A program made the translations under genes and the position numbers. Shown piece by piece: positions 3,312-28,629 of a stretch of 33,445 nt of DNA (positions are counted from its first letter, which is position 1; every line of letters begins with the position of its first letter). The DNA is from Candidatus Finniella inopinata (GTDB lineage Bacteria > Pseudomonadota > Alphaproteobacteria > Paracaedibacterales > CAITNM01). The stretch spans positions 1-33,445 of the forward strand of contig CALPGA020000013.1 of the NCBI GenBank assembly GCA_943322985.2. The letters are read 5' to 3'. The notes below the pieces were generated by a model. That model had not been told where the DNA came from, made no database searches, and saw only the letters and a list, made by a program, of their open reading frames with translations.

Positions 3312-3407
3312 TAATATCATAGTAAGCTTAACCTAACTGAAAATCCTGATGGTGATGTTGATCTGATTATTTCTAATCGTCATTAATTTTTTTTTGGTAA
3401 ATATTAC

Positions 3408-3434: not shown

Positions 3435-3443
3435 GTTCTTTCT

Positions 3444-4561: not shown

Positions 4562-4574
4562 AGTTTGTAAAATA

Positions 4575-4624
4575 AATCTTGAAGCATCTCAAGATTAGAT
4601 CGTTTAATTTTTTTAAGTCTTGAG
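4575..4624 (+). promoter_or_regulatory. Leader with two mutually exclusive hairpins (attenuator-like)
   Basis: Three short arms compete. AATCTTGA (4575-4582) pairs perfectly with TCAAGATT (4589-4596). The same middle arm, CTCAAGA (4588-4594), pairs perfectly with TCTTGAG (4618-4624). A run of seven T lies between the second and third arms. The segment sits between the antiterminator gene and the first gene of the polysaccharide operon. An attenuation or pausing role is inference, and the stems are GC-poor. Confidence 0.4.
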
Positions 4625-4672
4625 TGATTTTCACCCAGACTGCGGCAGCTATAGAAAGATAATAATAAAGCG

Positions 4673-8000: not shown

Positions 8001-9060
8001 AATAATAACTATCTTGGGGGCACGACCTCAATTTATAAAAGCGGCCGTGCTTTCAAAACACATTGCAGATGTTGTGCAGGAAGATATTCTGCATACTGGT
8101 CAGCATTATGATTATTTAATGTCTGGGGCTTTATTTGAACAGCTAGAGCTCAAAAAGCCAACTTGGCACCTAGAGTGCCATGCTTCAAAGCATGGTGCAA
8201 TGACAGCTAAAATGCTTGAAAGTATCGAGGTTATTTTAGAACAGCAAAAGCCAAATGCGGTTTTGCTTTATGGTGATACCAATTCTACTTTAGCTGGCGC
8301 TTTAGCTGCTGCTAAATTACATGTGCCGGTTTGGCATGTTGAATCAGGAGTTAGATCCTTTAACAAAAAAATGCCAGAAGAAATTAATCGAATAGTAACT
8401 GATAAAATTGCTGATGTTCATTTTGCGCCTTCTGCGGTAGCTTGTCAGAATTTGTTAAATGAAGGAGTCAACGCATCTTCCATTCATAATGTTGGTGATA
8501 TTATGTATGATCTTTTTCTTGAATCCGCCACTAAAGAAAAAAAAATAGACTTGCCATTTTCTGATGGTTTCTTATTACTAACCTTGCATCGCGCTGAAAA
8601 TTTTCAAAATTTCGAAGATATTCAAATGCTTTTTAAAGGGTTGGAAGTAATTGCAGAAAAATATCCCATTATTTTACCAATTCATCCACGTGTCGATAAA
8701 ATTTTACGACAAGGTGATTTTTCGATAAGTAATCGTATTTTTTTGCGTGATCCTCTCGATTATTTTGAGATGATTTATGCGCTTAACAGGTGTCATGGAG
8801 TGCTGACTGACTCAGGAGGATTACAGAAAGAATCCTATTACGCAGTCAAGCCATGTGTAACAATTCGAGAAGAAACTGAATGGGTTGAGTTGGTGGAGAG
8901 TGGCTGGAATATGCTTGTTCCTTCTGCGCAATTATGGGAAAATCAGTGTCAAGTTTTGGAATTTTTAGCTGCTAATTTTGAAAAAAAACAAAAGAAAAAT
9001 TTTTATGGTGCTGGAAATGCCAGTCAAAAAATCAAGAAAGTGATTCAAGAAATTTTATGA
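7987..9060 (+). CDS. WbpI-type UDP-2,3-diacetamido-glucuronate 2-epimerase
   Basis: This 357-residue non-hydrolysing UDP-GlcNAc 2-epimerase family member has a GT-B-like fold. Typical elements are G-A-R-P-Q-F-I-K-A near the N-terminus, H-T-G-Q-H-Y-D, G-D-T-N-S-T-L-A-G, H-V-E-S-G-V-R-S-F and M-P-E-E-I-N-R-I, then T-D-S-G-G-L-Q-K-E near the C-terminus. The P-Q-F-I-K-A and G-D-T-N-S-T forms, together with the adjacent WbpB-WbpD fusion, favour WbpI (UDP-GlcNAc(3NAc)A to UDP-ManNAc(3NAc)A) over plain WecB. The gene overlaps the fusion gene by 14 bases and the next gene by ATGA. Exact substrate is inferred from context. A second, WecB-like paralogue lies at 21602. Confidence 0.8.
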   Translation: MALPRIITILGARPQFIKAAVLSKHIADVVQEDILHTGQHYDYLMSGALFEQLELKKPTWHLECHASKHGAMTAKMLESIEVILEQQKPNAVLLYGDTNSTLAGALAAAKLHVPVWHVESGVRSFNKKMPEEINRIVTDKIADVHFAPSAVACQNLLNEGVNASSIHNVGDIMYDLFLESATKEKKIDLPFSDGFLLLTLHRAENFQNFEDIQMLFKGLEVIAEKYPIILPIHPRVDKILRQGDFSISNRIFLRDPLDYFEMIYALNRCHGVLTDSGGLQKESYYAVKPCVTIREETEWVELVESGWNMLVPSAQLWENQCQVLEFLAANFEKKQKKNFYGAGNASQKIKKVIQEIL

Positions 9061-10022
9061 GTAAAAATATTTTTATAACAGGCGTTGCAGGTTTTATAGG
9101 ATCAAATCTTGCGGTTGGATTGGTGAACAAAGGCTATAGAGTAATTGGTTTTGATAATCTTAGTCAGGGTTGCATGCTTAATTTGGCAGCAATCCAAAAT
9201 CATGAAAATTTTACTTTTATTAAAGGTGATATTTTAGACGGTTCAGGTTTGTTAAATATAAGTGAAAATATTGATGTTATTTATCACTTGGCTGCTTTTA
9301 AAATTCCCAGATATACAGATGCTCTTGATACGTTAAAGGTGAATTCTTTTGGCACTGACAATGTTGCTCAGTTAGCAGTTCAAAAAAAAGCTCACTTAAT
9401 TGCTGCTTCTACGTCCGATGTGTATGGTAAGAATTTAGCAATACCATTTAACGAAGAGTGTGATTCAATAATAGGCGCTCCAACAGTTAAACGTTGGGCC
9501 TACGCTATTTCAAAAATGTTTGATGAACAGCTTTTATTTGCGTACCATCAAAGACATAGCATTGATGTTACCTTGGTGCGTTTTTTTGGGGGGTATGGCC
9601 CTCATCAGCACTTATCATGGTGGGGTGGTCCGCAATCTGTTTTTATTGATGCAGCGTTACACCAAAAACCAATTGAAATACATGGGGACGGTTTGCAAAC
9701 ACGAACATTTACATATATTAGTGATCATGTTGCTGGTTTAATGAAAATGCTTGAAACCGAAAATTCCAAAAATCAACTTTTTAATCTTGGTTCATTTGAA
9801 GAAATAAGTATTTTAGACCTCGCTAAAAAGATTTGGTTTTTGGTGCAGGGCAACGAAGACGTTCCATTAAATATTATTCCCTATGAGAAATTTGGAAAAT
9901 ATGAAGATGTTAGAAGACGAGTGCCAGATATAACAAAAGCTCGTAGTTTGCTCAACTACGATCCAGCAATAACATTAGAAATGGGACTTAAAAAAACTAT
10001 TGAATGGCAAAGGTCTTTGTAA
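9057..10022 (+). CDS. NAD-dependent sugar epimerase/dehydratase (extended SDR)
   Basis: This 321-residue extended short-chain dehydrogenase has the NAD-binding loop G-V-A-G-F-I-G (9-15), the D-N-L-S segment, the S-T-S-D-V-Y-G strand (about 118-124) and the active-site Y-A-I-S-K (149-153). It acts on a nucleotide sugar in the cytoplasm. The overall pattern (R-F-F-G-G-Y-G-P, then D-H-V-A-G-L) resembles UDP-glucose 4-epimerases and UDP-glucuronate decarboxylase-type enzymes, but the substrate cannot be chosen from sequence. The start overlaps the WbpI-like gene stop by ATGA, which suggests coupling. Confidence 0.75.
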   Translation: MSKNIFITGVAGFIGSNLAVGLVNKGYRVIGFDNLSQGCMLNLAAIQNHENFTFIKGDILDGSGLLNISENIDVIYHLAAFKIPRYTDALDTLKVNSFGTDNVAQLAVQKKAHLIAASTSDVYGKNLAIPFNEECDSIIGAPTVKRWAYAISKMFDEQLLFAYHQRHSIDVTLVRFFGGYGPHQHLSWWGGPQSVFIDAALHQKPIEIHGDGLQTRTFTYISDHVAGLMKMLETENSKNQLFNLGSFEEISILDLAKKIWFLVQGNEDVPLNIIPYEKFGKYEDVRRRVPDITKARSLLNYDPAITLEMGLKKTIEWQRSL

Positions 10023-10027
10023 GCAGA

Positions 10028-10795
10028 ATGACACTATTTATTGTGATCCCATTTTTAAATGAAGCAGAAAATTTTGCTAGACTTGCACAGGAATTACGAG
10101 AATTTATTGATCATAACATGTCTAAGTCACAGTATCTGATCATTTTTGTTAATGACGGCAGCGCAGATAATTCGGTTGCTGAAGTGCATAAAAAGTTTGC
10201 TGATTTTAATTATCGGCTACTAAATCATGCGACTAATATGGGGCCAGGCACAGCTTTTCAAACAGCATTTTCAGAGATTTTAAAAGCTGCATCAGAGAAT
10301 GATTTTGTTCTTACAATAGAAGCAGATAATACAAGTAATCTTTCAATAGTTCCTAGTATGCTGCGTAGAAGTAAGGAAGGTTATGATGTTGTTTTGGCTA
10401 GTCCTTATATGTACGGTGGAACAATTACCAACACTCCCTTTATTCGCCGTTTCTTGAGTTTTTTTGCAAACCTTTTTCTAAGAGAATTGCTAGATTTGCG
10501 CGGACTTTTTACGATAAGTAGTTTTTTTAGATTGTATAAAGTAAGTGTTTTGCGCCACATAGCGAAAAATTTTGACAGTATGTTGATACAAAGAAAAGGT
10601 TTTGAAGGTAAGGTCGAATTGCTGATGAAGCTAGTTTTTTGTAAAATAGCTATTTCAGAAATTCCTTTGGTTCTTGATACTTCTCGCCGAAAGGGTAAAA
10701 GTAAAATGAAAATTTTAAGAACAATATTTGATCTCTTGTCTCTTTATTTTCGGAAGAGAAGTTGGAAAGAGCAAGCAATTGTTTATAAGTCATGA
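10028..10795 (+). CDS. Family 2 glycosyltransferase (dolichol-phosphate-mannose-synthase-like)
   Basis: This 255-residue GT-A fold enzyme has the opening V-I-P-F-L-N-E-A-E-N, V-N-D-G-S (41-45), N-M-G-P-G-T-A and E-A-D-N (98-101) in the place of the metal-binding D-x-D. The family moves sugars from nucleotide or polyprenyl-phosphate donors, and DPM1-like members make polyprenyl-phosphate sugars. No long C-terminal membrane domain is present, so it is a short form. I start at ATG 10028, six bases after the previous stop, because the conserved first strand follows immediately. An in-frame ATG at 10004 would add eight residues lying inside the upstream gene. It overlaps the downstream methyltransferase by ATGA. 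Confidence 0.75.
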   Translation: MTLFIVIPFLNEAENFARLAQELREFIDHNMSKSQYLIIFVNDGSADNSVAEVHKKFADFNYRLLNHATNMGPGTAFQTAFSEILKAASENDFVLTIEADNTSNLSIVPSMLRRSKEGYDVVLASPYMYGGTITNTPFIRRFLSFFANLFLRELLDLRGLFTISSFFRLYKVSVLRHIAKNFDSMLIQRKGFEGKVELLMKLVFCKIAISEIPLVLDTSRRKGKSKMKILRTIFDLLSLYFRKRSWKEQAIVYKS

Positions 10796-11514
10796 GCACT
10801 GCTGACCATTGTCATTATGACCATTATTGTGCTGACCAGATTAAGCGTTTGGATGGTTTTTATGGTTTGATAGAAAGAACTCTACATCAAGAGCTCGTCC
10901 CACACATGGATGGTAAAACAATTCTTGATATTGGTTGTGGGTTTGGTTCATTGTGTGATTTTTTCAATCAACTTGGCTTTGATGCTACTGGAATTGAGCA
11001 GCATCAGGTTAGCCTTGATGCTGCAAGAGAAAAATTTCCACATATAAATTTTATTTTTGATAATGGAACTATTCTTGATACGATTTCTGATAATTCGTTT
11101 GATATTGTTATCATGAAAGATGTGATTCACCATGTTGTTGCTGAAGCTGATTCTCAAGCATTTATGCGAAATGTGAATAGAATTTGTAAGAATCAGGTTA
11201 TTATTATTGATCCAAATCCAACTCTTATTCTGAAATTGGCTAGAAAAATCATTAGGCATATTGATCCAGAATGTTCGCCAAAACAAGCAATAGATTTACT
11301 TTCTGATAACAAATTTAGATTAAAGAGAATGTTCTTTAGTGAAGTTTTTGCTTTTCCATTAAGTGGTGGTTACGTTGGACCAGAATTAATAAAGTCACCT
11401 TTCTTAATGCGCTTTATTTTAAAAATAGATCGTTTCTTTTTAAAAGCGCTTAATTTTATGAAGCTTTCTCGTTTTGTGTGTTGGAGGTATGTTATTGTTG
11501 CTGAAAAAATATAA
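10792..11514 (+). CDS. Class I SAM-dependent methyltransferase
   Basis: This is a 240-residue Rossmann-type methyltransferase. Motif I is I-L-D-I-G-C-G-F-G-S (44-53), the acidic residue binding the SAM ribose is in G-I-E-Q-H-Q, and the F-D-I-V-I-M-K-D-V-I-H-H motif follows. It probably O- or N-methylates a sugar of the polysaccharide or its lipid-linked precursor; the target is not visible. The ATG overlaps the stop of the upstream glycosyltransferase. Its own 3' end overlaps the next gene by roughly 25 bases. It is one of six methyltransferases in the cluster. Confidence 0.75.
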   Translation: MSTADHCHYDHYCADQIKRLDGFYGLIERTLHQELVPHMDGKTILDIGCGFGSLCDFFNQLGFDATGIEQHQVSLDAAREKFPHINFIFDNGTILDTISDNSFDIVIMKDVIHHVVAEADSQAFMRNVNRICKNQVIIIDPNPTLILKLARKIIRHIDPECSPKQAIDLLSDNKFRLKRMFFSEVFAFPLSGGYVGPELIKSPFLMRFILKIDRFFLKALNFMKLSRFVCWRYVIVAEKI

Positions 11515-12763
11515 CATACTCACCTTCTTCTTTTTTGTTTTTGTGCTATTGGCATTCCTAGCCTATTTTTGGGGATGGAAGACAAGTGGCGTGTTAGAAA
11601 ATAGTATGTCAATGACATATCCAGAAGGATACAGATACGGCTTTTCGTCCCTAAAATATGGTGATTGGTGGGTTAATAAAGAATCTTCCTATTACTTATT
11701 GGCAGCGCAAGGGTTTTTAGGGGTTGATGGTGCGACACTTAATGTGGGATGCATGTATGAAATTTATCGGACTTTTTATCCTTTATTGCTCAGGTCCTTT
11801 TGGTTTTTAGAGCCTATTGAAGCGGTTTTAGTTTTGGATATCTTTATGTGGTTTTTTGCATGTACAGCTATCTGGTGTACATGCAAAAATATTGGTTTGT
11901 CATCCACTACAAGTTTTTTTGCTATATTTTTAACAATATTTGGGCAAGGATTTCTTCAATCTGTAGGCGAAGGAATGCCACATTTAGCGGGGTATTGCTC
12001 TGGCTACTTTGTTATTTTTTTAATATCTTATCTAAGGTCGTGGGAAAAATTAGCTAGCTGGAAAGATGATATTCCTATATACGCTTTTATAGGAATATGG
12101 CAGTTGGCATATGGTACAGCTTTTTTCTTTCTGCCTGTTGCTTTGTGCGCAACATTTTGGCGTTTTTATCAAAACTCTTTTTTTGATTTAAAAAAACTAT
12201 GGTTGTTACTTTTGCTAGCATTTATGCCCTACCTTATTATATCATTATGCGTAAAAATATTTTTTTCAAGTAGTGGTGGGGTTAGCGCTATTGTCTTTGA
12301 AAATATTATGAAGAATTACCAAGGATTTTATAGTCTGGTAAAAAGATATCTGTTTGTATTATTTGATAGCTTTGTCTCATTGGGGCCCGTTGCTTTAGTT
12401 GGGCTGTTTGGGCTTGTATATTCTTCTTTTAGAGAAAAAAATCCATATTTAAGAGTGCTTTTGGGCGTGTGTTTACTTCAATTTTTGGCGATGGCTGTTT
12501 TATTGTTGCCGTTAGCAGGTCGTGGTTATGCAACCTTTAACTTTTATCCAGCTATCTGTTTGGGGGCAGCTATTGTGTTAGGAAATTTATGGGAACAGAA
12601 AGGGAGAATTTTAAAAATTTACGTTTCTTCATTTTGTTTTCTTTTGGTTATCTATGCTCATGGAGTTAAAGCTGGATTCCAACTCCCTAATCAAATATTT
12701 TTTACTGGTGTAGGTAGCATCAACGCACCTTGGTTTAGTCATGAACTTATTTTATTTCAATAA
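11489..12763 (+). CDS. Polytopic membrane protein, unknown (possible polymerase or GT-C-like)
   Basis: This roughly 424-residue, very hydrophobic protein has about nine or ten membrane helices, rich in Phe, Leu and Tyr. An early extracytoplasmic loop contains the Y-G-D-W-W-V-N-K-E segment. I do not recognise the family. Position and topology would suit an O-antigen polymerase or a membrane-embedded glycosyltransferase, but no catalytic motif is certain. The start is uncertain: GGAGG at 11483-11487 is only one base before ATG 11489, while TTG codons at 11495 and 11498 are at 7 and 10 bases, a better spacing. All candidates lie inside the end of the methyltransferase gene. It overlaps the next gene by 23 bases. 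Confidence 0.55.
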   Translation: MLLLLKKYNILTFFFFVFVLLAFLAYFWGWKTSGVLENSMSMTYPEGYRYGFSSLKYGDWWVNKESSYYLLAAQGFLGVDGATLNVGCMYEIYRTFYPLLLRSFWFLEPIEAVLVLDIFMWFFACTAIWCTCKNIGLSSTTSFFAIFLTIFGQGFLQSVGEGMPHLAGYCSGYFVIFLISYLRSWEKLASWKDDIPIYAFIGIWQLAYGTAFFFLPVALCATFWRFYQNSFFDLKKLWLLLLLAFMPYLIISLCVKIFFSSSGGVSAIVFENIMKNYQGFYSLVKRYLFVLFDSFVSLGPVALVGLFGLVYSSFREKNPYLRVLLGVCLLQFLAMAVLLLPLAGRGYATFNFYPAICLGAAIVLGNLWEQKGRILKIYVSSFCFLLVIYAHGVKAGFQLPNQIFFTGVGSINAPWFSHELILFQ

Positions 12764-13535
12764 ATTTTTTATTTTTTTTATAGTGATTACCTCATTGCAG
12801 TTCGCGGGTCCTGTCTATAATTTTATCTCTTTTGGTCTGGCGATACCGTTGACTTCTTACGTAAATATTCTTAGTCAGCCGCTAGAAATAAAATTTATCA
12901 TTAAAAAAATAGCAACGTTGGGTGTATTAAACTTACTAATATTTTTCAGTTCAATGTATTTATATATAATTTTTTATTCATCTGAAAAAATGAAATCATT
13001 TGTTTGGGGGGCATTTTTTTTTATTGGGCTGGGTGGTTTAGGTTATTATTGCAGTGATCAGAAAAAATTAGAATTTAGAGAAAGCAACCAGAGATTTTTA
13101 AACGTTAATGCAGATAAAAAAAATGTTGTTGCTTGTATAAAATTTAAAGAGTTCCCAAAGGGATTCTATCAAGATTTAGTTGCAGCTAAAAATGGTGAAG
13201 TCAAACTATTGATTAATCAAAGATTATGTACATCTTGGTATGATATAAATCAGGGCAAAATTATGCTTAATAATACAGTGCTTCCTATGGCTGTTCCTGT
13301 GGAGCTTGATAAAGCAGAAATAGACAATTTTCTTGAAACGAAAGAACTTCATCTAACTGTGCGTGGTGAAGATGTTTGTTTGGAGTTGAGAGATCTAAAG
13401 GGGAAGCCTTTGGTATCACGAGATGATTTGTTGTTTTTCGATGATAAAAATATTGAGTTAGGTTACGATAAAACATTTTTTCTATCTTTTTATGTTGAAT
13501 CCTTGGATGGAAGAATATTAAGAGTTTATTTGTAA
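12741..13535 (+). CDS. Membrane-anchored protein of unknown function
   Basis: This 264-residue protein has three likely membrane helices (about 7-30, 57-79 and 86-103) followed by a soluble domain of about 160 residues. That domain is rich in Lys, Asp and short alternating hydrophobic strands and may be a beta fold on the far side of the membrane. I recognise no family or active site. The 23-base overlap with the upstream polytopic protein suggests the two are made together and may act as a pair. The ATG at 12741 is the only early start that keeps the first helix whole. Confidence 0.5.
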   Translation: MNLFYFNKFFIFFIVITSLQFAGPVYNFISFGLAIPLTSYVNILSQPLEIKFIIKKIATLGVLNLLIFFSSMYLYIIFYSSEKMKSFVWGAFFFIGLGGLGYYCSDQKKLEFRESNQRFLNVNADKKNVVACIKFKEFPKGFYQDLVAAKNGEVKLLINQRLCTSWYDINQGKIMLNNTVLPMAVPVELDKAEIDNFLETKELHLTVRGEDVCLELRDLKGKPLVSRDDLLFFDDKNIELGYDKTFFLSFYVESLDGRILRVYL

Positions 13536-13551
13536 GGGCATCAGAGATTTT

Positions 13552-14676
13552 ATGGTTATACAGTTTATTGATTTAAAAGCACAACAGGTGCGTATTCGAC
13601 CGCAGGTTGATGCGGCGATTAAGCGTGTTCTTGATCACGGCGCTTATATAATGGGCCCAGAGGTTTATGAACTAGAAAAGCAGTTGGCAGAGTTTTGTGG
13701 TGTGAAACACGCAATTTCTTGCGCCAATGGAACTGATGCATTAGGTCTTGGGCTTATGGCTAAAAATGTAGGTCCTGGTGATGCAATCTTTGTTCCATCA
13801 TTTACTTTTGCTGCAACAGCAGAAGTTGTTGCATGGATGGGAGCGACTCCTGTTTTTATTGATTCACTGGAAGATACTTATAATATCGATCCCATCAGTT
13901 TGGAGTTGGGAATTCAAACAGCAAAAAAGCTGGGTTTAAGACCAGCTGGAATTATTCCAGTGGACTTGTTTGGTCAGCCGGTTGATTATGACGCAATTCA
14001 AACGATTGCGGATGAATATAATCTTTGGGTGATGGCAGACGGGGCGCAGAGCTTTGGGGCAAGCTATAAAGGAAGAAAAGTTGGTAACATTGGTGATATG
14101 GCTACGACAAGCTTTTTTCCAGCAAAGCCATTGGGTTGCTATGGAGACGGTGGTGCGATTTTTACTAACGATGATGAGTTAGCATCAATCATGAAATCTC
14201 TTCGGGTGCACGGCCAAGGAACGGATAAATATGATAACGTTCGCATTGGTATGAATGGGCGATTGGACACTATACAAGCTGCAATTTTGATTGAGAAATT
14301 GAAAATATTTCCAGAAGAGCTTATTACACGCCAGAAAACAGCTGATGCATATAATAATGGATTAAAAGATGTGGTGCAGATTCCGTATGTTATGGATGGA
14401 GTGACATCTGCTTGGGCGCAATATACTGTGTGTCTTCCAAATGGTATTAATCGTGAAAAATTAATGATTGATCTGAAAGAAGTTGGGATTCCAACGATGA
14501 TTTATTATGTAAAGCCCTTGCATTTACAAACAGCGTATAAGCACTATCCAACAGTTGGCGCTTTGTCTGTTTGTGAGTCTCTGTCAAATAAAGTTTTAAG
14601 TTTGCCAATGAGTGGTTATGTTAATAAGCAATGTGTGATTTTAAAAACTTTAGAGGCTCTGAATTTTAATGCTTAA
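13552..14676 (+). CDS. DegT/DnrJ/EryC1/StrS aminotransferase, WbpE/WlbC-like
   Basis: This 374-residue PLP-dependent sugar aminotransferase has the opening F-I-D-L-K-A-Q-Q and S-C-A-N-G-T-D-A-L-G. The D-G-A-Q-S-F-G element is followed by F-F-P-A-K-P-L-G-C-Y-G-D-G-G-A, where K192 is the predicted Schiff-base lysine. F-I-D-L-K-A-Q-Q together with the K-P-L-G form is characteristic of WbpE/WlbC, which installs the C3 amino group on UDP-3-keto-GlcNAc uronate using glutamate. This fits between the two activities of the fusion protein at 6426. The gene lies 4.5 kb away from its partners, separated by membrane and transferase genes. It overlaps the next coding frame by 8 bases. Substrate is inferred from context. 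Confidence 0.82.
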   Translation: MVIQFIDLKAQQVRIRPQVDAAIKRVLDHGAYIMGPEVYELEKQLAEFCGVKHAISCANGTDALGLGLMAKNVGPGDAIFVPSFTFAATAEVVAWMGATPVFIDSLEDTYNIDPISLELGIQTAKKLGLRPAGIIPVDLFGQPVDYDAIQTIADEYNLWVMADGAQSFGASYKGRKVGNIGDMATTSFFPAKPLGCYGDGGAIFTNDDELASIMKSLRVHGQGTDKYDNVRIGMNGRLDTIQAAILIEKLKIFPEELITRQKTADAYNNGLKDVVQIPYVMDGVTSAWAQYTVCLPNGINREKLMIDLKEVGIPTMIYYVKPLHLQTAYKHYPTVGALSVCESLSNKVLSLPMSGYVNKQCVILKTLEALNFNA

Positions 14677-15681
14677 AAATTTTCTAATAAAAAAACCAGA
14701 TCTAAACAATAAAACAATTTTGGTAACAGGTGGAACTGGGTCATTTGGCAACCAGTTTGTGCAAACTATCATTGATAACTATGCTCCCAAAAAACTAATT
14801 ATTTTTCAAGGGATGAGCTAAAACAATACGAAATGGCTCAGAAATTCTCAGAGTCTAAATATCCATTCATGCGCTATTTTATTGGTGATGTTCGAGATTA
14901 TAGTCGCTTAGAAATGGCTTTGCGTGGTGTTGATATTGTGATTCACGCAGCAGCTTTAAAACATGTGACGATTGCGGAATATAATCCTTACGAGTGCATC
15001 AACACAAATGTTATTGGTGCAGAAAATCTTGCTCGCGCGTCTCTTCGGAATGGTGTCAGTCACGTTCTAGCGCTTTCTACAGATAAAGCAGTGAGTCCTA
15101 TTAATTTGTATGGTGCCAGCAAGCTTGCCGCAGAAAAAATTTTTATTGCTGCTAATAATATACGTGGAACTGATCCCACGATATTTTCGGTTGTGCGTTA
15201 TGGAAACGTTGTTGGGTCACGTGGAAGCGTTGTTCCTTTTTTTAAAAAGTTGTTAATAGAAGGTGTAAAATCGTTACCTATAACTGATAACGAAATGACG
15301 CGTTTTTGGATTACCTTGCAACAAGGTGTGGATTTTATTTTATCTAATTTGGCATTAATGCAGGGAGGGGAAATTTTTATTCCAAAGATTCCAAGCATGA
15401 AAATTACAGATTTAGCAGAGGCTATTCAGCCAGGTATTGCAACGCACGAAATTGGCATTCGTCCAGGTGAAAAATTACATGAATGCATGATTACATCTGA
15501 TGAGGCATTGCAAACAGTTCAAATGGATGACCGCTATGCGATTCTTCCATCGTTTGTGAATTTAAATGCTTGGAAGTGTGGTGTAGAGACAGCTCCTGTT
15601 GCAAAAAGAATGATTTATTCAAGTGAAACAAATACGGAATGGCTTAATACAAATCAACTTACAAAAATGATTGATAGTTAA
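14669..15681 (+). pseudogene. pseB: PseB-like UDP-GlcNAc 4,6-dehydratase, frameshifted
   Basis: The first half reads from ATG 14669 with the NAD-binding V-T-G-G-T-G-S-F-G segment and reaches K-K-L-I-I-F, then hits TAA at 14819. One extra T in the run 14802-14806 would restore S-R-D-E-L-K-Q-Y-E-M-A, a PseB/FlaA1 hallmark, and join the second reading frame, which runs to 15681. That half has A-A-A-L-K-H-V, S-T-D-K-A-V-S-P-I-N-L-Y-G-A-S-K (the Y-x-x-x-K site) and G-N-V-V-G-S-R-G-S-V. Intact PseB inverts and dehydrates UDP-GlcNAc as the first step to pseudaminic acid. As written the gene is broken. A sequencing error in the T run or slippage during expression are the alternatives. The start overlaps the aminotransferase stop by 8 bases. 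Confidence 0.85.
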
Positions 15682-15682
15682 T

Positions 15683-15979
15683 ATGATTCCTTACGGTCGA
15701 CATTCTATTGATCAAAGCGATATTGATGCTGTTGTTCGGGTGTTGCAGGGCGGTTGGTTAACTTGTGGTCCGATTGTTGAGGCATTTGAGCAAAAACTAG
15801 AAAAAATTGTTAATGCAAAATATGCAATCTCTTCTTCTAATGGCACAACAGCTTTGCATTTGGCTATGGTGGCTTTGGGTGTGCGAGCTGGAGATGTTGT
15901 GTTAGTTCCAGCTATTACTTTTCTAGCGTCTGCCAATGCTGCGCGTTATGTGGGGGCCGATGTCGTTTTTGTTGATTAG
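15683..15979 (+). pseudogene. pseC: PseC-like aminotransferase, N-terminal fragment
   Basis: Only 98 codons remain of an enzyme normally about 380 residues long. The opening I-P-Y-G-R-H-S-I-D, the G-G-W-L-T-C-G-P turn and the S-S-S-N-G-T-T-A-L-H-L-A segment are typical of PseC, which aminates the PseB product. The frame ends at TAG 15977-15979 straight after G-A-D-V-V-F-V-D, before the PLP lysine, so the fragment cannot be active. The ATG lies one base after the PseB-like stop, as in intact pseBC operons. Sequence beyond the stop encodes something unrelated, which points to a deletion junction rather than a point mutation. Confidence 0.8.
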
Positions 15980-16107
15980 GAGAGGATGTATCTAAACAAT
16001 TAGAAAAAATATACGCTGTCAACTTAGATGAAATAAATAAAAAAAATGAAATTTTTTGGGAAAACTTTCTGCGTCAGATTTTAAATAAAAATAATATTAA
16101 GGTCGTT

Positions 16108-16995
16108 ATGTTTAGTAATGATGATTCAGGTTATTATTTAGGCATGAGAAAATCAGTTCAAAATGTAGGTGTGCCGTGCATAAATTATTACTATGAGCAC
16201 TATACATTGCCATATATGAAAGCAATTAACATTTCATACAAACAATCATACAACTTGAACTATAAGGGAGACGCTCTTTTTTTGTGGAATGACCATGCCG
16301 CTTTAGCATATATAGAGTTTAATAGGTGTCCAAAAGAAAAATGTTATGCTATAGGCGCTCCAAGATTTGATAGATGGCTTCATAGTAAAAACCAACAGGA
16401 AAATATTATCACTTTAATGGCTTATCCTGGTCCTGAATACATGGCTGAATTTAATCACTGGGATGTTATGATTATTTTGAATTATCTATCGAAAAAGTAT
16501 AGCCATTATAAGTTTTATGTAAAATGTAAAAATAGTTTTCAAGAGCATTGCTTAGGGATATATGCATACAAATCTGGATGGAATAATTTAATTATAGATT
16601 CTAAAATTGACAACGTAGATTTAATGTCAAAATCTAAAGTTATTATTGGTTTAAATTCTCTTTCTATTCTGGAAGGACTACTAACAAAAGCGTGTTTAGT
16701 AAATCCTTTTTGGGGGGATGCATGCCTTCCTGATAATTTATTGCAGATAGACCCTAACGACGATCTTGTAAAAAAGTGTTTCGCATTTCCTGACTCAAGA
16801 GAAAAAATGTGTGATATTATTGAGGATGTTATACTAGCTCGCAATTATGTGGATATTGACATGCAATCAAGATTAAAGCTTTTTAACAACTATATAAGAT
16901 TTGACTCTGATGACAGCTGCACAGCAAAATTTGAGCACATTGTAGTTTCTTTAATAGAAAAAGAAGAAAAACATCATATCTCAAGGTTATTATGA
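16108..16995 (+). CDS. Glycosyltransferase-like protein, probably 5'-truncated
   Basis: The frame is open from 15976 but has no ATG, GTG or TTG before 16108. The upstream 44 codons read like ordinary protein, so the true N-terminus is probably lost at the pseC junction. The part from 16108 (295 residues) looks like the C-terminal two-thirds of a GT-B type polysaccharide transferase: an I-G-A-P-R-F-D-R-W element, then K-S-K-V-I-I-G-L-N-S-L-S-I-L-E-G-L, the pattern around the donor-binding site of capsule transferases. Codon choice looks more AT-rich than the genes before it. The assignment is tentative and the protein may be inactive. Confidence 0.45.
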   Translation: MFSNDDSGYYLGMRKSVQNVGVPCINYYYEHYTLPYMKAINISYKQSYNLNYKGDALFLWNDHAALAYIEFNRCPKEKCYAIGAPRFDRWLHSKNQQENIITLMAYPGPEYMAEFNHWDVMIILNYLSKKYSHYKFYVKCKNSFQEHCLGIYAYKSGWNNLIIDSKIDNVDLMSKSKVIIGLNSLSILEGLLTKACLVNPFWGDACLPDNLLQIDPNDDLVKKCFAFPDSREKMCDIIEDVILARNYVDIDMQSRLKLFNNYIRFDSDDSCTAKFEHIVVSLIEKEEKHHISRLL

Positions 16996-17032
16996 TTATT
17001 TATTATTTTTTCGCCTTTTATGGTAGTTCAAA

Positions 17033-18040
17033 GTGACCTATTTTATAAAAAATTTCGATGAAATAACTTCTCATGAATGGGATAGCTACGTTGAAAATCA
17101 TCAAAATAGCTGGCTTTGGCACACTTCTGATTTTATCAAAGCAAAAAATAGTTGGCATGGTCATTCTAATCAAAGCTTTGGAATATATGATTTTTCCCAA
17201 AATATCGTTGGAATTTTCCCTCTGCATTTAATAGAAAGCAAAATATTTAGAATCTTTAATGCCCCAATCTTAGATAATATTGGTGGGTGGCTGACAGATG
17301 ATAAAACTAATAATGCTTGTTATTCTCAGATTCTAATTAACGAATTTTCAAAAAAATTATCAAAGTTTTCTTGTTTGGCTGGAAATATCAATTTTTCTAC
17401 GGCATCACTCAATCAGGGCATAGATCCGTTGTTTGTCCATGGGCTTTCTGGAAATAGAGCATACATAAGCGCTATAGATTTAGCTCGCTCTTCTGAGGAT
17501 ATTTGGAAAGGCTTTAGGAAAGGTCATAAGTCTGAAATAAAGAAAGCTGAAAATAACAATATTACCTTTAAATTAGCCTTACCAGAGGATTTAGAATGTT
17601 ACTGTGATATGCATAAAAAAGTTTATGCTAAATCAGACCTGCTTCCTCATAATAAAAAATATTTTGAACGGATATTTAATATATTGCTTCCAAAGAATAA
17701 CGCCATTGTTGGGATTGCTCTTTTAAATGGAAAACCGATTGCAATGGCTAACTATGGTGCTTACAAAGGGAAAGCAGTTTATTGGACAGGAGCCTGTTTT
17801 GATGATGCCTATAAAGTTGGGGCGAACCACTTTTTGCACTGGAAAATGATTCAACATTTACAAGATATAAATATTTCCTGGCTTGACATGGGGGAAATTT
17901 TTTACCAGCATTTCAGCTCCAAAATACAAGGAATCTCAAATTTTAAAATAGGATTTGGTGGAAAATTTTTTCCTATTTATAAGGGGTCCATAAGTTCCAT
18001 TTCAAAATGGTTGAAAGCTTATCAAGTGATTTGGGGTTGA
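17033..18040 (+). CDS. FemAB/GNAT-like acyl- or aminoacyltransferase (BioF2-type)
   Basis: This 335-residue protein has the look of the GNAT-related FemAB/BioF2-like family. The W-D-S-Y-V-E-N-H opening leads to an F-R-K-G-H-K-S-E-I-K-K-A-E segment in the middle. A C-terminal half carries N-G-K-P-I-A-M-A, Y-W-T-G-A-C and G-A-N-H-F-L-H-W-K-M-I. In exopolysaccharide clusters such proteins usually add an acyl or amino-acid group to a sugar; the substrate here is unknown. The start is the GTG at 17033, because a TAG lies six bases upstream in the same frame and there is no other early start. A 37-base gap separates it from the upstream gene, unlike most junctions in this cluster. Confidence 0.65.
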   Translation: MTYFIKNFDEITSHEWDSYVENHQNSWLWHTSDFIKAKNSWHGHSNQSFGIYDFSQNIVGIFPLHLIESKIFRIFNAPILDNIGGWLTDDKTNNACYSQILINEFSKKLSKFSCLAGNINFSTASLNQGIDPLFVHGLSGNRAYISAIDLARSSEDIWKGFRKGHKSEIKKAENNNITFKLALPEDLECYCDMHKKVYAKSDLLPHNKKYFERIFNILLPKNNAIVGIALLNGKPIAMANYGAYKGKAVYWTGACFDDAYKVGANHFLHWKMIQHLQDINISWLDMGEIFYQHFSSKIQGISNFKIGFGGKFFPIYKGSISSISKWLKAYQVIWG

Positions 18041-18042
18041 GT

Positions 18043-18795
18043 ATGCAAAAAGAATATACCTCAGATCTTATCCACAATGAATTAATTTCTTCATATGGTT
18101 TTCAGATCGATAAGCATTTTTCTTCTGAATTAAAGTATGAAATTCTTAAAAAATACACAAAAATAGCTGATGATCTCTTAGATGCGGGATGTGCAAATGG
18201 TTTATTTACTTTTGCTATAAGCAATGCATGTTGTAATGTTCAAGGTATTGATATCAATCAAAATTTTATAAATTTAGCTACTCAAAAAAAGAAAGATTTT
18301 AAAGTTCAAAATGTAATTTTTTCTTTTGGTGATTTGGAGGACATTCCATTTTCTTCTTTTATTTTTGACTTGGTATATAGTTATTCTGTACTTGTGTTGT
18401 TAGAAAATATTAGCAAGGCTATTAGTGAATGCGTGCGTGTCACAAAGAAAGATGGAATAGTAATATTGGATATTACAGGAAAGTATAATTTGTCTCAAAG
18501 ATTTTGGAAAAAATATTACGTTTCTAAAGGACATTTTTCCTTTAATGCTCTTTCTTGGGATGAGGTCAAAAATGTTTGTGCAATTAATAATTTAAAAATT
18601 ATTGAATCTCACGCACTTGGTTTTTTGGATCAATGGAAATATCTCCCTTTAATTTCTAGAGTGGCTTCAAAGCTAAATTTCATTGATAAAATTTTTCATT
18701 TTTCAAAAAATAGTGATTTGGATTATAAGGTATCTAATTTAAAAATTTTTAAGCCTTTTGCGAATCGGTGGTATATCGTATGTCAGAAAATATAA
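18043..18795 (+). CDS. Class I SAM-dependent methyltransferase
   Basis: This 250-residue methyltransferase carries motif I L-L-D-A-G-C-A-N-G-L, then G-I-D-I-N-Q-N-F and G-D-L-E-D-I-P-F-S. The middle G of the usual G-C-G-x-G is replaced by Ala (G-C-A-N-G), a tolerated variant in this fold. The ATG at 18043, two bases after the upstream stop and following GGGGTTGAG, is preferred to an in-frame ATG at 18007 that would lie inside the upstream gene. It overlaps the next gene by 16 bases. First of three methyltransferase genes in a row; target unknown, presumably a glycan. Confidence 0.7.
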   Translation: MQKEYTSDLIHNELISSYGFQIDKHFSSELKYEILKKYTKIADDLLDAGCANGLFTFAISNACCNVQGIDINQNFINLATQKKKDFKVQNVIFSFGDLEDIPFSSFIFDLVYSYSVLVLLENISKAISECVRVTKKDGIVILDITGKYNLSQRFWKKYYVSKGHFSFNALSWDEVKNVCAINNLKIIESHALGFLDQWKYLPLISRVASKLNFIDKIFHFSKNSDLDYKVSNLKIFKPFANRWYIVCQKI

Positions 18796-19622
18796 AATTT
18801 AATAAAGTTTCCCCTTTTTGTTGTTTCGGAGGAAAAGAGACTGAGTGCTTTGAATCTATTCCTATTCTTGTTCGGAATTATGCTGATATTCGATCTCATA
18901 TTGAAGATGCAAAAGTAAATGGGAAAAAAGAATGGTATGAAAGCTCTCAAGAAGCTATATGGTCTGGACCATATCGTCATCACCTACTTAAAAGGAAAGA
19001 GTACGTTCAGCATATTTTAAAAAATTACGCTGCTAAAAATACGATAAATTCTCTTTTAGATCTAGGTTGTGGAGATGGTGCTAATTTTAAATGGTTAAAA
19101 AACTATGCAGAAAATTTATATGGTTCTGACTACAACATAGCTCGCCTTGTTCGTGCTAAAAATAGAAATATTGCAAAAGAGGTCGTTCTTGCGGATGTAA
19201 CTGATTATGCTGCAAATGAAGGGGCTTTCGATGTTATTTTCTTTAATCATGTGCTTGAGCATATTCCAGATGATACAAAAGCACTTTCAGAAGTTCATCG
19301 AGTATTAAAAAAAGGAGGAATTTGTATTCTTGGTATTCCTAATGAAGGGGCATTTTGGTGGCAACTTGCTTACAAATTACAGCCAAATTCACTAAAAACA
19401 ACGGATCATGTTCACTTTTATACGATTAAAAGTATTTCTGAAAAAATCAAAGCGGCTGGCTTTACGATTAAAGAGATTAAGCGCCTGGGTTGGGGCATCC
19501 CTCATTGGGATTTGGATTCTAGGTTAAGGGGTTACAAAATTTTGGACGATCTTTTTGAGTTCTTTGGGAAAATATTTATTCCCAATCAAGCATCAAGTTT
19601 ATATTTTATTATTGAAAAGTAA
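18780..19622 (+). CDS. Class I SAM-dependent methyltransferase
   Basis: This 280-residue protein has motif I L-L-D-L-G-C-G-D-G-A, the acidic G-S-D-Y-N ribose-binding position, F-N-H-V-L-E-H-I-P-D and R-V-L-K-K-G-G, a complete Methyltransf_11-type core. An N-terminal extension of about 90 residues precedes the core and contains a Cys-Cys pair. The start is ATG 18780, inside the end of the previous gene; an in-frame GTG at 18768 would add four residues. Second of three tandem methyltransferases. The three are clearly diverged from each other, so this is not a recent duplication. Confidence 0.72.
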   Translation: MSENIKFNKVSPFCCFGGKETECFESIPILVRNYADIRSHIEDAKVNGKKEWYESSQEAIWSGPYRHHLLKRKEYVQHILKNYAAKNTINSLLDLGCGDGANFKWLKNYAENLYGSDYNIARLVRAKNRNIAKEVVLADVTDYAANEGAFDVIFFNHVLEHIPDDTKALSEVHRVLKKGGICILGIPNEGAFWWQLAYKLQPNSLKTTDHVHFYTIKSISEKIKAAGFTIKEIKRLGWGIPHWDLDSRLRGYKILDDLFEFFGKIFIPNQASSLYFIIEK

Positions 19623-19626
19623 GGCA

Positions 19627-20445
19627 ATGAGTGCAATAGAAAGCAAAATAAGGAAGCATCTTTTTAAGCAGTATGAGGGTATATTTCTTCCTCAACAAAT
19701 TGATAAGCATGTCAATAATTACGTCCAGAACGTTCAAAGTGACTACCTAATACAGAAAATAACACCTTTTATTGTTACTGGTAAAATCTTAGACATCGGC
19801 TCTGGTTACGGGAGCTTTGTTTTGTCAGCACTTCAAAATGGGTATGATGCTTATGGAATTGAGGTTGAGGCTTTTGAGCACGAAATTTCAAAGGAAAGAG
19901 CTTCTAGCCAGAGTGTAGATCCTTGCAGATTTTCTCATGGATCTGCTCTCGCATTGCCATATTCTGATGAAACCTTTGATATGGTCTCTTTTTGGAATGT
20001 ACTTGAACATATCAGTGATTATAAACTTGCTTTGAAAGAAGCAAAAAGGGTTTTAAAACCAGGTGGATTAATTTTTATTATTGCACCTAACTATTGCTCT
20101 TTCAGAAAAGAAGCGCATTACCATTTGCCATGGTTACCACTATTTCCAAAATCGTTAGCACGGTTATATTTGAAGGCTTTCGATCGTAAAACTAGTTTTC
20201 TGGATGATTACATTTTTTATGTAACTAATTTTGGGGTTAAAAGATTTTTAAAATCCCAAGAGTTATCAATTTCAGTAGACATTAATGAAAAAATATCGAA
20301 AGGCTATGCTTTTCAATCCTCTAAAATCAATTTTCTGGTTTCACTTTGCAGAAGATTTAAAATGGAAAAATTTTTAATAAAATTTATTTTTCTAGTGAAA
20401 ACTAATCCTTTGGCACATTCGATTGATTTAATAGTAAAAAAATGA
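19627..20445 (+). CDS. Class I SAM-dependent methyltransferase
   Basis: This 272-residue enzyme has motif I I-L-D-I-G-S-G-Y-G-S, G-I-E-V-E in the ribose-binding loop, F-W-N-V-L-E-H-I-S-D and R-V-L-K-P-G-G. After the core it has an H-Y-H-L-P-W-L-P-L-F-P-K stretch seen in sugar or lipid-linked glycan methyltransferases. ATG 19627 follows AAGG and lies four bases after the previous stop. An upstream in-frame ATG (19555) would start inside the neighbour. The last bases overlap the next gene by ATGA. Third of the tandem set; target not identifiable. Confidence 0.72.
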   Translation: MSAIESKIRKHLFKQYEGIFLPQQIDKHVNNYVQNVQSDYLIQKITPFIVTGKILDIGSGYGSFVLSALQNGYDAYGIEVEAFEHEISKERASSQSVDPCRFSHGSALALPYSDETFDMVSFWNVLEHISDYKLALKEAKRVLKPGGLIFIIAPNYCSFRKEAHYHLPWLPLFPKSLARLYLKAFDRKTSFLDDYIFYVTNFGVKRFLKSQELSISVDINEKISKGYAFQSSKINFLVSLCRRFKMEKFLIKFIFLVKTNPLAHSIDLIVKK

Positions 20446-21605
20446 CAAAAAAACTTCTAATTATATCTTCTGACTATATATCATCATGGATTGAGAAGGG
20501 AGAAGTGGTCCCTAGGTATTACAATCCGGGGAATTTTTTTGAAGAAGTGCACATCATGATGACTAATGATGATAAGCCTGACCCTTTTCTTTTGCAGTCG
20601 ATGGTGGGGAGCGCAAAGTTATTTATTTACAATTGCCCTGAACCAAAAAAATTTTTCAAAAAAACACTGGGGTGGCAGCCATTTTTGATGAAAAAATGGG
20701 CAGATGAAGCAATTGTTATTGCTAGAAAAATCCAGCCTAGCTTAGTGCGGTGTTATGGTCTCCACCTTAATACTTTTTTAGGGGCTAAAATTAAACAAAT
20801 TCTGGAAGTTCCTTTCATTACAAGTCTTCATGGAAATCCAGATGTTGATTACTTTCGTGGCAGATTAGCAAAAAATTTGAAAGATAAGATTATTGGAAAA
20901 TGCCAAGAAAAACTAGAAAAATTTTGTCTCAGATTTTTGGATCATGTGATTGCAGTTTATTCACCCGTTGAATCTTATTTAAAAAAAAATAGGGTGAAGT
21001 CTTATTCAGTTATTCATAATGTTGTTGGTTTGGGGTTGAGCAAAAAGCAAGATTATTCTATTGATCCTGAAAAAATCAACCTTCTTTGTGTGGGGCGTCA
21101 GACCTATCTTCAGAAGGATCCAGTTAATATTATCAGAGCCATTTCATTTTTAAAAAATGCGCATTTAACATTAGTAGGTGATGGTGACTTGCATGACGCA
21201 CTTGTTAATCTTGCGCGTGATTTAAGGTGTGATCACCGTGTTACATTTATAAAAACGATGAATAATAAGGACCTGATTTTTTTGATGAAAGATATTGATA
21301 TTTATATCTATCACTCTATTAATTATGAAATAAGTAAAAGTTGTATTGAAGCTGCATTAGTTGGTCTTCCTATTATTCTTAATGATCGTTTTGGTCAGCC
21401 TGCCCAGGAGCTTAAAGATGCAAATTTTTATTTAGTAGAAGACTCTCCAAAAAGCTATAAAAATGCGATAGAAAAATTGTTGGCAGATAAAGAATTCAGA
21501 ATGAAGTTGGCTAAGGTTTCGCATAATTATGCACTACAGAATTGGGCACCGGAAATTACTGAGAAAAAATTAGTTGATCTGTATAAAAAGTATGTGAGCA
21601 TATGA
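20442..21605 (+). CDS. GT-B glycosyltransferase, family 4-like
   Basis: This 387-residue retaining-type GT-B protein has an N-terminal acceptor domain with F-I-T-S-L-H-G-N-P-D. A linker V-I-H-N-V-V-G leads to a donor domain with C-V-G-R-Q-T-Y-L-Q-K-D-P, L-V-G-D-G-D-L and K-S-C-I-E-A-A-L-V-G-L-P-I-I (the E-x7-E-like region, with only the first Glu obvious). It would transfer a sugar from a nucleotide donor to the growing lipid-linked chain at the cytoplasmic membrane face. Start and stop overlap neighbours by ATGA on both sides (methyltransferase before, WecB-like epimerase after). Donor sugar unknown; adjacency to the epimerase makes ManNAc a possibility. Confidence 0.75.
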   Translation: MTKKLLIISSDYISSWIEKGEVVPRYYNPGNFFEEVHIMMTNDDKPDPFLLQSMVGSAKLFIYNCPEPKKFFKKTLGWQPFLMKKWADEAIVIARKIQPSLVRCYGLHLNTFLGAKIKQILEVPFITSLHGNPDVDYFRGRLAKNLKDKIIGKCQEKLEKFCLRFLDHVIAVYSPVESYLKKNRVKSYSVIHNVVGLGLSKKQDYSIDPEKINLLCVGRQTYLQKDPVNIIRAISFLKNAHLTLVGDGDLHDALVNLARDLRCDHRVTFIKTMNNKDLIFLMKDIDIYIYHSINYEISKSCIEAALVGLPIILNDRFGQPAQELKDANFYLVEDSPKSYKNAIEKLLADKEFRMKLAKVSHNYALQNWAPEITEKKLVDLYKKYVSI

Positions 21606-22657
21606 AAACTATCCATCTTATCTGTGCTGCACGGCCAAATTTCATGAAAATAGCGCCACTGTATCATGCGCTCAAAAAAGAAAGCCGGTTTAAACTTGAA
21701 ATCGTGCATACGGGACAGCATTACGATTACCAAATGTCGCAAGCATTCTTTGATGATCTTAATTTACCTCTTCCTCATCATCATTTAGGGGTGGGTAGTG
21801 GCACACATGCCGAGCAAACAGCCCAAACTATGATTGCTTACGAAAAATTGTGCTTAGAAAAAAGAAAACCTGATTTAGTTGTGGTGGTGGGAGATGTTAA
21901 CGCAACTCTTGCATGCACAATAGCTGCTAAAAAAATACATTTACAAGTTGCACATTTAGAAGCAGGACTAAGAAGTTTTGATCGTACTATGCCTGAAGAG
22001 GTCAACAGGATTGTGGCCGATTCTATTAGTGACTACTACTGGACACCATCAGAAGATGCTAATGAGAATCTGCTCAAAGAAGGCGTAAGGCCAGAGCAGA
22101 TTAGTTTTGTTGGCAATATCATGATTGATACGTACTGCATGATGCAAAATAAGATTGAGCAAAAAGAAACTTACCATCAATTTGGGTTAAGCAGGCAAAA
22201 TTATGTGGTGTTAACGCTTCATCGTCCTGCTAATGTTGATTCGCTTGATAGGCTTGAGCTGACAATGGAAAAAATCAGACAAATAGATTTACCAGTAATT
22301 TTCCCAGTTCATCCGCGCACAAAAAAGAATCTCGAGCAAATTGAGCAGTTGCCAAAAAATCTAAAAATCATAGACCCGCAAGGATACATTGATTTTATGA
22401 GTCTTGTTTCAAATGCAGCCTATGTTATTTCAGATTCAGGTGGAATTCAAGAAGAGACTACTTACCTAGGTATTCCTTGTTTTACGTTAAGGGATACAAC
22501 AGAACGTCCAATTACAGTTACCGTGGGGTCAAATCAGTTGGTTAGTGTTGATAATCTTCTTGATAGAATTCAATATCCTAAAAAAGGTGAAATTCCTCCG
22601 TTATGGGATGGAAAAACAGCTGAGAGAATAAAAATATTAATTAGGGATAGATTATAA
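21602..22657 (+). CDS. wecB: UDP-N-acetylglucosamine 2-epimerase (non-hydrolysing), WecB-type
   Basis: This 351-residue protein has C-A-A-R-P-N-F-M-K-I-A-P near the N-terminus, H-T-G-Q-H-Y-D, V-V-G-D-V-N-A-T-L-A, H-L-E-A-G-L-R-S-F-D and M-P-E-E-V-N-R-I. The donor-site S-D-S-G-G-I-Q-E-E-T follows. It interconverts UDP-GlcNAc and UDP-ManNAc. The V-N-A-T and P-N-F-M-K forms match WecB better than the paralogue at 7987, which has T-N-S-T and P-Q-F-I-K. No UDP-ManNAc dehydrogenase (WecC) is next to it, so ManNAc itself may be the sugar used. It overlaps the upstream transferase by ATGA; the next gene's ATG follows its stop with no gap. Confidence 0.82.
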   Translation: MKTIHLICAARPNFMKIAPLYHALKKESRFKLEIVHTGQHYDYQMSQAFFDDLNLPLPHHHLGVGSGTHAEQTAQTMIAYEKLCLEKRKPDLVVVVGDVNATLACTIAAKKIHLQVAHLEAGLRSFDRTMPEEVNRIVADSISDYYWTPSEDANENLLKEGVRPEQISFVGNIMIDTYCMMQNKIEQKETYHQFGLSRQNYVVLTLHRPANVDSLDRLELTMEKIRQIDLPVIFPVHPRTKKNLEQIEQLPKNLKIIDPQGYIDFMSLVSNAAYVISDSGGIQEETTYLGIPCFTLRDTTERPITVTVGSNQLVSVDNLLDRIQYPKKGEIPPLWDGKTAERIKILIRDRL

Positions 22658-23392
22658 ATGTTTGTACATGAAAAAAACACTCAGTTTGAGGTGGATCAGA
22701 GAAAATTTTTTGATGAGCTAATAACAAAAGATTGGAACACATATAAAAATAAACTTTGGGATTTTACTAGAGCATATGAAGTAAAAAAAATAATTCAAAA
22801 AACAAACCCTAGTCGCATTCTTGATATAGGGTGTGGATGCGGTTTTCATGATCTGCTTTTTGCAAAAAGTTCAGGTGTAAAATATGTATTAGGAATTGAT
22901 TATTCAAAAGAAAGCATTAAGAAAGCTAATCAAGAGTACCCGCATCAAAAAGTGGAAAGAGTGTGTATAGACTTTTTGTCAGAAAGTGAAGGTATACTAA
23001 GTGATTTTGATCTCGCAGTTTCTTTTCAGGTGATAGAGCATTTGGAAGACTTTGAGCGTTTCCTTTCTCTGATGTCTTCAAAGGTCAAAAAGGGTGGATA
23101 TGTTGCAATTGCAACACCTAACTTTGATCGCTTTTCTAACCGTATTAGAAGATTTTTTGGTTATTCTTCTCAATTTTGCGATCCAATGCATTTTAGAGAG
23201 TTCAACTTACTGGAGCTTAAGAATTTGGGAAAAAATGCTCATCTTAACATGATAGATCATTTTGGTTATGCGCTGTCTTTAAATGCCTTTTTTAACTTTG
23301 ATAAATATATTCCGGCTAAGGTTAGATTTTATTTGGGAGCTGCAGTTCCTAGCATGGCTGAAGTAATTGTTATTATTTTTAAAAAACTATAA
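22658..23392 (+). CDS. Class I SAM-dependent methyltransferase (UbiG/Methyltransf_11-like)
   Basis: This 244-residue protein has motif I I-L-D-I-G-C-G-C-G-F, the acidic loop G-I-D-Y-S-K-E-S, F-Q-V-I-E-H-L-E-D and K-K-G-G-Y-V-A-I-A-T-P-N. The A-T-P-N-F-D-R-F-S-N-R segment and the following M-H-F-R-E-F are common in methyltransferases of polysaccharide loci. The ATG directly follows the TAA of the WecB-like gene, so the two are coupled. Target not identifiable from sequence. Confidence 0.73.
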   Translation: MFVHEKNTQFEVDQRKFFDELITKDWNTYKNKLWDFTRAYEVKKIIQKTNPSRILDIGCGCGFHDLLFAKSSGVKYVLGIDYSKESIKKANQEYPHQKVERVCIDFLSESEGILSDFDLAVSFQVIEHLEDFERFLSLMSSKVKKGGYVAIATPNFDRFSNRIRRFFGYSSQFCDPMHFREFNLLELKNLGKNAHLNMIDHFGYALSLNAFFNFDKYIPAKVRFYLGAAVPSMAEVIVIIFKKL

Positions 23393-23400
23393 GTCGTATA

Positions 23401-24267
23401 ATGAGTGCTCATTTAAAAATCCTCAATCGCATTAATCCAAATCTTATCTGGTATTTGTATGCTGAAAAATGCAAAAAATTATTTAATGAATCTAAACTTA
23501 TTCTTTCATTTGATTGTGATACAGAAGAAGATATAGTCGTTGTTTGGGATGTTCATTCAAGGCTTTTGGACATGGGAATTACTCCTGTTTATGCAGTTCC
23601 AGGAGAGTTATTGAAAAAAGGCGAAAAAATTTACCGAAAAATTCATGAAACAGGCGCTGAGTTTATTAATCATGGTGGCAGAGAGCATACCTATTTTGAT
23701 ACAGCCAACAATCGACATGCTAGTTGTTTTTTTTATGATCAGCAGCCACTTGGGATTGTAGAGCAAGACATTATCCAAGGTCATAAAACCCTTCAAGATG
23801 TTTTGGGAATAACAGCAACATGCTGGCGAACTCCTCATTTTGGAACCTTCCAAAAATCAGAGCATTTGATTTTTCTCTATTCTATATTAAAAGAAATGAA
23901 TTATAAATTTTCAACATCAACGAGTCCTGAAATGGCCTATAGATATGGCCCTATATATAAACACGATAGTATATTTGAAATGCCTGTGACTGGAATTTTT
24001 TCAGAGCCATTGAATATTATGGACACTTGGGGCTATTTTGAGGCGCATGATCGTTTTAGAGCACCTGATGATTACGTTAAAACAAGCCAAAGTCTTGCTA
24101 AGTTTTCTTCTTGCCATCCAATATTTATAAATATTTATGGGGACCCTAGTCACATTTATGACAAGCCGGAATTTTTTCAAGCGATGAAAATTCTTGTGCA
24201 AGCATCAGAAAATATGAATTATACTCAACTTTTAGGAATGATTGATGAAAACCTACGCCTTCTTTGA
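23401..24267 (+). CDS. Polysaccharide deacetylase (NodB-like, carbohydrate esterase 4)
   Basis: This 288-residue NodB-homology protein has the metal and catalytic Asp motif L-S-F-D-C-D-T-E-E-D (35-44), the His motif F-I-N-H-G-G-R-E-H (88-96) and the R-T-P-H-F-G motif (143-148). These would bind a divalent metal and remove acetyl groups from N-acetyl sugars. The His motif is a variant of the usual H-(S/T)-x-x-H. No signal peptide is visible, so it probably acts in the cytoplasm on a lipid-linked or nucleotide-linked precursor. Its last 23 bases overlap the next small gene. It opens a block (23401-28598) with a conserved-looking order: deacetylase, small protein, methyltransferase, AsnB-like, glycosyltransferase. 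Confidence 0.75.
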   Translation: MSAHLKILNRINPNLIWYLYAEKCKKLFNESKLILSFDCDTEEDIVVVWDVHSRLLDMGITPVYAVPGELLKKGEKIYRKIHETGAEFINHGGREHTYFDTANNRHASCFFYDQQPLGIVEQDIIQGHKTLQDVLGITATCWRTPHFGTFQKSEHLIFLYSILKEMNYKFSTSTSPEMAYRYGPIYKHDSIFEMPVTGIFSEPLNIMDTWGYFEAHDRFRAPDDYVKTSQSLAKFSSCHPIFINIYGDPSHIYDKPEFFQAMKILVQASENMNYTQLLGMIDENLRLL

Positions 24268-25554: not shown

Positions 25555-25557
25555 CTC

Positions 25558-28598: not shown

Positions 28599-28629
28599 AA
28601 CTGATTTTTGTTATTAATCCTCCAAACAA

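Follow-up and report, generated by a model that had tools for sequence, protein, structure and literature searches.

A probable recombination joint truncates pseC and a predicted GT-B-fold gene within a mosaic surface-polysaccharide locus of Candidatus Finniella inopinata

How two genes, neither of them complete, came to meet at a single point in the surface-polysaccharide locus of Candidatus Finniella inopinata is the question raised by the junction between pseC and the reading frame that follows it. The first-pass annotation had read this junction as a deletion scar, left when a single interval separating them was lost together with the rest of pseC and perhaps pseF, pseG, pseH and pseI. The host belongs to an alphaproteobacterial lineage with a small, low-G+C genome. 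The window, i.e. the whole stretch of 33,445 nucleotides that was analysed, corresponds to positions 1–33,445 of the forward strand of contig CALPGA020000013.1 (assembly GCA_943322985.2), and the features discussed here are collected in Table 1. The final 147 bases of the contig (33299–33445) recur at the ends of about 12 other contigs of the same genome; they represent a multicopy element at which the assembly is broken, and the minus-strand frame at 32698–33312 extends into it.

Table 1. Positions of the features discussed in the text and the comparisons on which each assignment is based.
Feature	Positions	Strand	Basis
Conserved left flank: DNA-binding-like protein, NusG/RfaH-like protein, ABC transporter	3408–6433	+	Comparison with relatives
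Module left of the pse remnant, including Gfo/Idh-acetyltransferase (6366) and DegT (13552) genes	6366–14676	+	Comparison with G004, G006 and G029
Putative left joint of the pse remnant, from the end of DegT homology to the start of pseB homology	14625–14663		Both genes survive
pseB (UDP-GlcNAc 4,6-dehydratase, inverting), with an apparent one-base frameshift near the 5' end	14669–15681	+	TIGR03589; alignment with G003 and G001
pseC' (pseC codons 1–98, then a stop made by the joint)	15683–15979	+	TIGR03588 positions 1–98 of 380; intact orthologues in G001, G003, G009 and G010
Probable recombinant joint, where homology with all Pse-type relatives ends	15976–15977		blastn end points and side-by-side sequences
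5'-truncated gene of predicted GT-B fold; 339-codon open frame lacking a usual start, its only later ATG at 16108	15976–16995	+	Full-length homologues; AlphaFold models and Foldseek
First ATG of the truncated frame, located within a beta strand predicted for the N-terminal domain	16108–16110	+	Models and homologues
Right-hand module: FemAB-like, methyltransferase, glycosyltransferase, WecB-type epimerase, deacetylase-like, asparagine-synthase-like and glycosyltransferase genes	17033–28598	+	G024:C189
Right edge of the right-hand module, at the terminator-like hairpin of pnp; homology with G002 and G003 resumes	28607–28640		Sequence comparison
pnp, conserved right flank	28681–30768	-	Amino acid identity of 99% to G002 and 95% to G003

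The pseC frame runs from the ATG at 15683 through codon 98 to a TAG at 15977–15979, where a full gene would have about 387 codons. When tested against the PseC model (TIGR03588), its product scored 132 bits versus a cut-off of 423.5 and 495 bits for the intact orthologue of G003; on this comparison pseC' is a gene fragment and would not encode a PseC enzyme. Screening of 58 relatives for the 98-residue stretch identified intact pseC frames of 390–394 codons, with no internal stop, in four genomes of the same genus, in which the corresponding stretch was 85–91% (G001, G003 and G010) or 71% (G009) identical. A blastn comparison of the window with each of these four genomes gave a match that stopped at base 15976 in every case, and the side-by-side sequences displayed an abrupt change at the same position. 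Since four alignments stop at one and the same base, chance can be excluded as the origin of this end point. The claim that PseC ends after 98 codons where another frame opens was therefore borne out by the frames, the TIGR03588 match and the blastn ends, with coordinates correct to within 1–2 bases, and the scar at 15976/15977 is, as judged from these alignments, real. No short repeats able to mediate a joint were present at 15976/15977. An 11-base match, ATCTAAACAAT (14700–14710 and 15990–16000), was considered as a mediator and rejected, being located off the joint and probably due to chance.

The frame to the right of the joint opens after the TGA at 15973–15975, and upstream of 16108 it contains no ATG, GTG or TTG but only ATA, ATT and CTG. 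It could not be assigned to any Pfam family; its similarity to the surface carbohydrate biosynthesis protein model TIGR04396 was weak, with 15.5 bits over approximately 43 residues, far below the 125-bit cut-off. Sequence and profile searches of the PDB returned chance matches only, and searches of plasmids, phages, viral contigs and, with the single sequence, genome contigs returned none. No homologue was found within the same order. A class-wide search identified eight clear full-length homologues, and 11 homologue loci were recorded from genome contigs, several of them from Dongia and other Rhodospirillaceae and partly representing the same genes as those of the class search. This unnamed family is exemplified at full length by L100–L110 and L113. 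The closest homologue, a protein of 428 amino acids from another class of the phylum (E ~1e-43), is matched only from its residue 116 onwards. Homology started at query residues 19–37 (41 in one partial match), i.e. 8–26 residues upstream of the Met encoded at 16108, which is residue 45, and in the full-length homologues this point is preceded by about 90 or more residues. Their conserved N-terminal block (TVLCLxRxxFxKDIxEL ... QExWVP) is missing from the window frame, as are the first two strands, while the invariant motifs GxPRxDxW, IGxN and PxW are kept along with similarity over the body of the protein.

Structural modelling was consistent with these alignments. The AlphaFold model of the L105 homologue (pLDDT 90) displayed a confident strand-helix-strand-helix arrangement at residues 33–70 that is absent from the model of the window protein (pLDDT 84), in which the first strand comprises residues 44–47 of a Rossmann-like N-terminal domain. 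Foldseek matched both models to GT-B-fold enzymes in the PDB; because UDP-GlcNAc 2-epimerases have the same fold, the label "glycosyltransferase" would be a fold-level assignment only. Alignments and models together indicate that approximately 75–110 N-terminal codons are missing, and we infer that the truncated gene is non-functional. One could argue instead that this gene is intact with a start at 16108 and that pseC alone is truncated, given an AAGG motif five bases upstream of that ATG and 295 codons without a stop after it. This reading is scarcely credible and already contradicted: homology reaches upstream of the ATG and residue 45 sits within a predicted strand, so that 16108 should not be a natural start, and a search for an intact homologue that naturally begins at the matching residue found none. 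The earlier description of a start-less frame, and of two incomplete genes meeting at one point, has accordingly held up.

Downstream of pseC, G003 carries a cytidylyltransferase-like gene and the genes for PseG and PseI, with PseC, PseG and PseI all scoring over their cut-offs. When the G003 cluster from pseC onwards (15.4 kb) was searched for in the genome of Candidatus Finniella inopinata, only two matches of 43–44 bases were obtained, both in other sugar genes of the window, and no second copy of the lost pse DNA was found elsewhere in the genome. Nor was any NeuB/PseI-family gene found in this genome; such a gene is present in five of the ten other congeners and absent altogether from the remaining five. 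The expectation that the lost DNA had held the rest of pseC and further pse genes was thus correct in that relatives carry the remainder of pseC, PseG and PseI immediately after this point, whereas this genome has none of them.

The surviving pse genes include pseB, which scored 418 bits against TIGR03589, over the cut-off, across model positions 46–324; positions 1–45 are out of frame as a result of a frameshift in a short T run at about 14802–14806, as compared with the intact copies of G003 and G001. The remainder of pseB (frame 14833–15681) is otherwise intact and conserved, with 96% amino acid identity to G003. As the frameshift lies in a short homopolymer, it is less secure than the truncation of pseC. 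It could be a sequencing error in the T run, or it could represent a recent loss of the gene, given the intact and conserved remainder, while slippage is less likely. Compared with the known pseudaminic acid pathway (PseB, PseC, PseH, PseG, PseI and PseF), pseB and the initial part of pseC have intact orthologues in four congeners, but all that is left here is pseB with its frameshift and the first 98 codons of pseC. Because pseC is cut, the other pse genes are absent and pseB is frameshifted, the gene content predicts that the known route to pseudaminic acid is closed.

Comparison with relatives placed these remnants in a locus that would be best described as a hypervariable mosaic, changing between close relatives from the nusG/rfaH-like and ABC-transporter block to pnp. 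Homology of the window with G003 covers 139–6391 and 14663–15976 and then resumes from 28607 onward, so that the pse piece, 1.3 kb in length, is an island with a segment unrelated to G003 on each side. In the sister genome G002, with flanks 96–97% identical, the same ABC transporter is followed by LegB, LegC, NeuC-type and NeuB-type genes. Within the genus, the same locus holds pseudaminate genes in G001, G003 (L025/L026), G009 and G010 versus legionaminate-type genes in G002 (L076). To the left of the island, the segment begins with the Gfo/Idh-acetyltransferase gene and ends with the DegT gene; these two are adjacent in G004, G006 and G029 and are separated here by six extra genes (7987–13535). 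The last 15–17 residues of the DegT protein (14625–14676) are unlike those of its homologues and its stop overlaps the start of pseB, as for a left joint that spared both genes. To the right, the module that follows the truncated frame is colinear with positions 9991–21530 of G024:C189, sharing all twelve of its genes in unchanged order at 48–80% amino acid identity, and its second half also occurs in G029. By this synteny, the DNA right of the joint is a separate polysaccharide module and not the far end of a pse cluster. Two neighbouring genes within it (23401–24267 and 24242–24688), neither of which has a Pfam family, are kept with the module in G024 and G029 at 54–67% identity.

The divergence of these segments is informative with regard to their history. 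The synonymous divergence (dS) from G003 was 0.29 for pseB and 0.30 for pseC', versus 0.50–1.05 for eight flanking genes; since these values are lower than that of the backbone, the pse piece was exchanged between the lineages by recombination after their split. Identity to G002 declines near 3.3 kb, from about 97% to about 89% (positions 3300–6400, containing the DNA-binding-like, nusG/rfaH-like and ABC-transporter genes) and returns to about 97% beyond the pnp terminator, a drop and recovery that suggests exchange of the whole locus as a block, in either this lineage or that of G002. On this lineage pseB has acquired four amino acid versus 17 synonymous changes, and the pse remnants are little decayed; the small number of amino acid changes argues that the loss was recent. 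The changes in pseC' (three amino acid versus five synonymous) are too few for relaxed selection to serve as a clock.

Taken together, these data mark 15976/15977 as a probable site of non-homologous recombination within a surface-polysaccharide locus swapped between lineages, and one at which both genes were broken. To its left would lie the remnant of a pseudaminic-acid locus, namely pseB and the first quarter of pseC, and to its right a different module whose first gene, the GT-B-fold transferase, has lost its N-terminal codons. Joining of the two modules would have broken both genes and removed the rest of the Pse pathway from the genome, with the pseB frameshift acquired either at the joining or separately, and the cell presumably makes another polysaccharide from the intact genes flanking the joint. 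The alternative proposed by the first-pass annotation is a simple deletion in an ancestor that had a full pse cluster, the transferase gene and the FemAB-led module in a row, extending from pseC codon 99 to transferase codon ~75–110. Both genes are cut as a single deletion would cut them, the pse genes found after pseC in relatives are missing here, and G003 shows that extra modules can adjoin a complete pse cluster. However, intact pseC (four genomes) and other pse genes were found among the relatives searched, and full-length homologues of the downstream gene outside the order, but none of these relatives had both modules in one row. In G024, which represents another family of the order, the FemAB-led module directly follows the ABC transporter without pse genes. 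Moreover, G003 and G002 have other genes in common at the pnp end (in G002, G003-like genes beside pnp on another contig), hence a deletion alone could not yield the right half of the window. We consider a simple deletion rather unlikely, and the idea that one interval between the genes was lost is not supported, since the right-hand DNA is another module, shared with a different family, and the pse piece has recombined. A deletion confined to a single locus accounts for the data no better than a joint of two locus types, and the latter is the better supported; as the pse piece was exchanged and its remnants are little decayed, a recent joint is favoured, and we infer module exchange rather than simple deletion. 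Against such a joint, no genome was found in which a full-length transferase gene adjoins this FemAB-led module, and a class-wide search with the FemAB-like gene for a module so preceded returned nothing beyond the window at E 1e-20.

Two further readings were weighed against this joint of two locus types. An assembly misjoin or a mixture of strains is conceivable in a draft of 47 contigs (completeness estimate 99.5%), many of which end in copies of the multicopy element, but there is no repeat at the joint, the 1.3-kb region containing it is single copy in the genome, and reported contamination is 0.02%. The outer flanks on either side are orthologous to those of G002 and G003, so an artefact would require two or more independent misjoins that between them restored the normal flanks, which leaves this explanation very unlikely. 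Extremely unlikely is a working rewiring, in which slippage in the T run switches the pseB remnant, now serving the new polysaccharide, and the transferase, re-initiated from 16108, has a reduced or regulatory role.

A close parallel to the exchange of modules exists in the capsule (cps) loci of pneumococci, nearly all of which retain a pseudogene comprising the first 153–174 nt of aliD (PMC5111408). In both systems the flanks are conserved, the middle is swapped and truncated remnants of older genes persist; unlike the pneumococcal case, the host here is an alphaproteobacterium, the flanks are the nusG/rfaH-like and ABC-transporter genes and pnp, and the remnant derives from a Pse locus. No exact precedent in O-antigen clusters was found in the literature searched. 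The joint is a clean but ordinary case of the known switching of polysaccharide loci, in a new place, and it changes no general view. Its value lies in a surface-sugar locus that seems to have been caught soon after a switch, with the old pathway broken, hardly decayed and traceable to the locus type of close relatives. Nonulosonate gene content, whether pseudaminate or legionaminate-type, differs among very close relatives, and the locus would provide a datable example of a coat change in the small-genome bacteria of this order.
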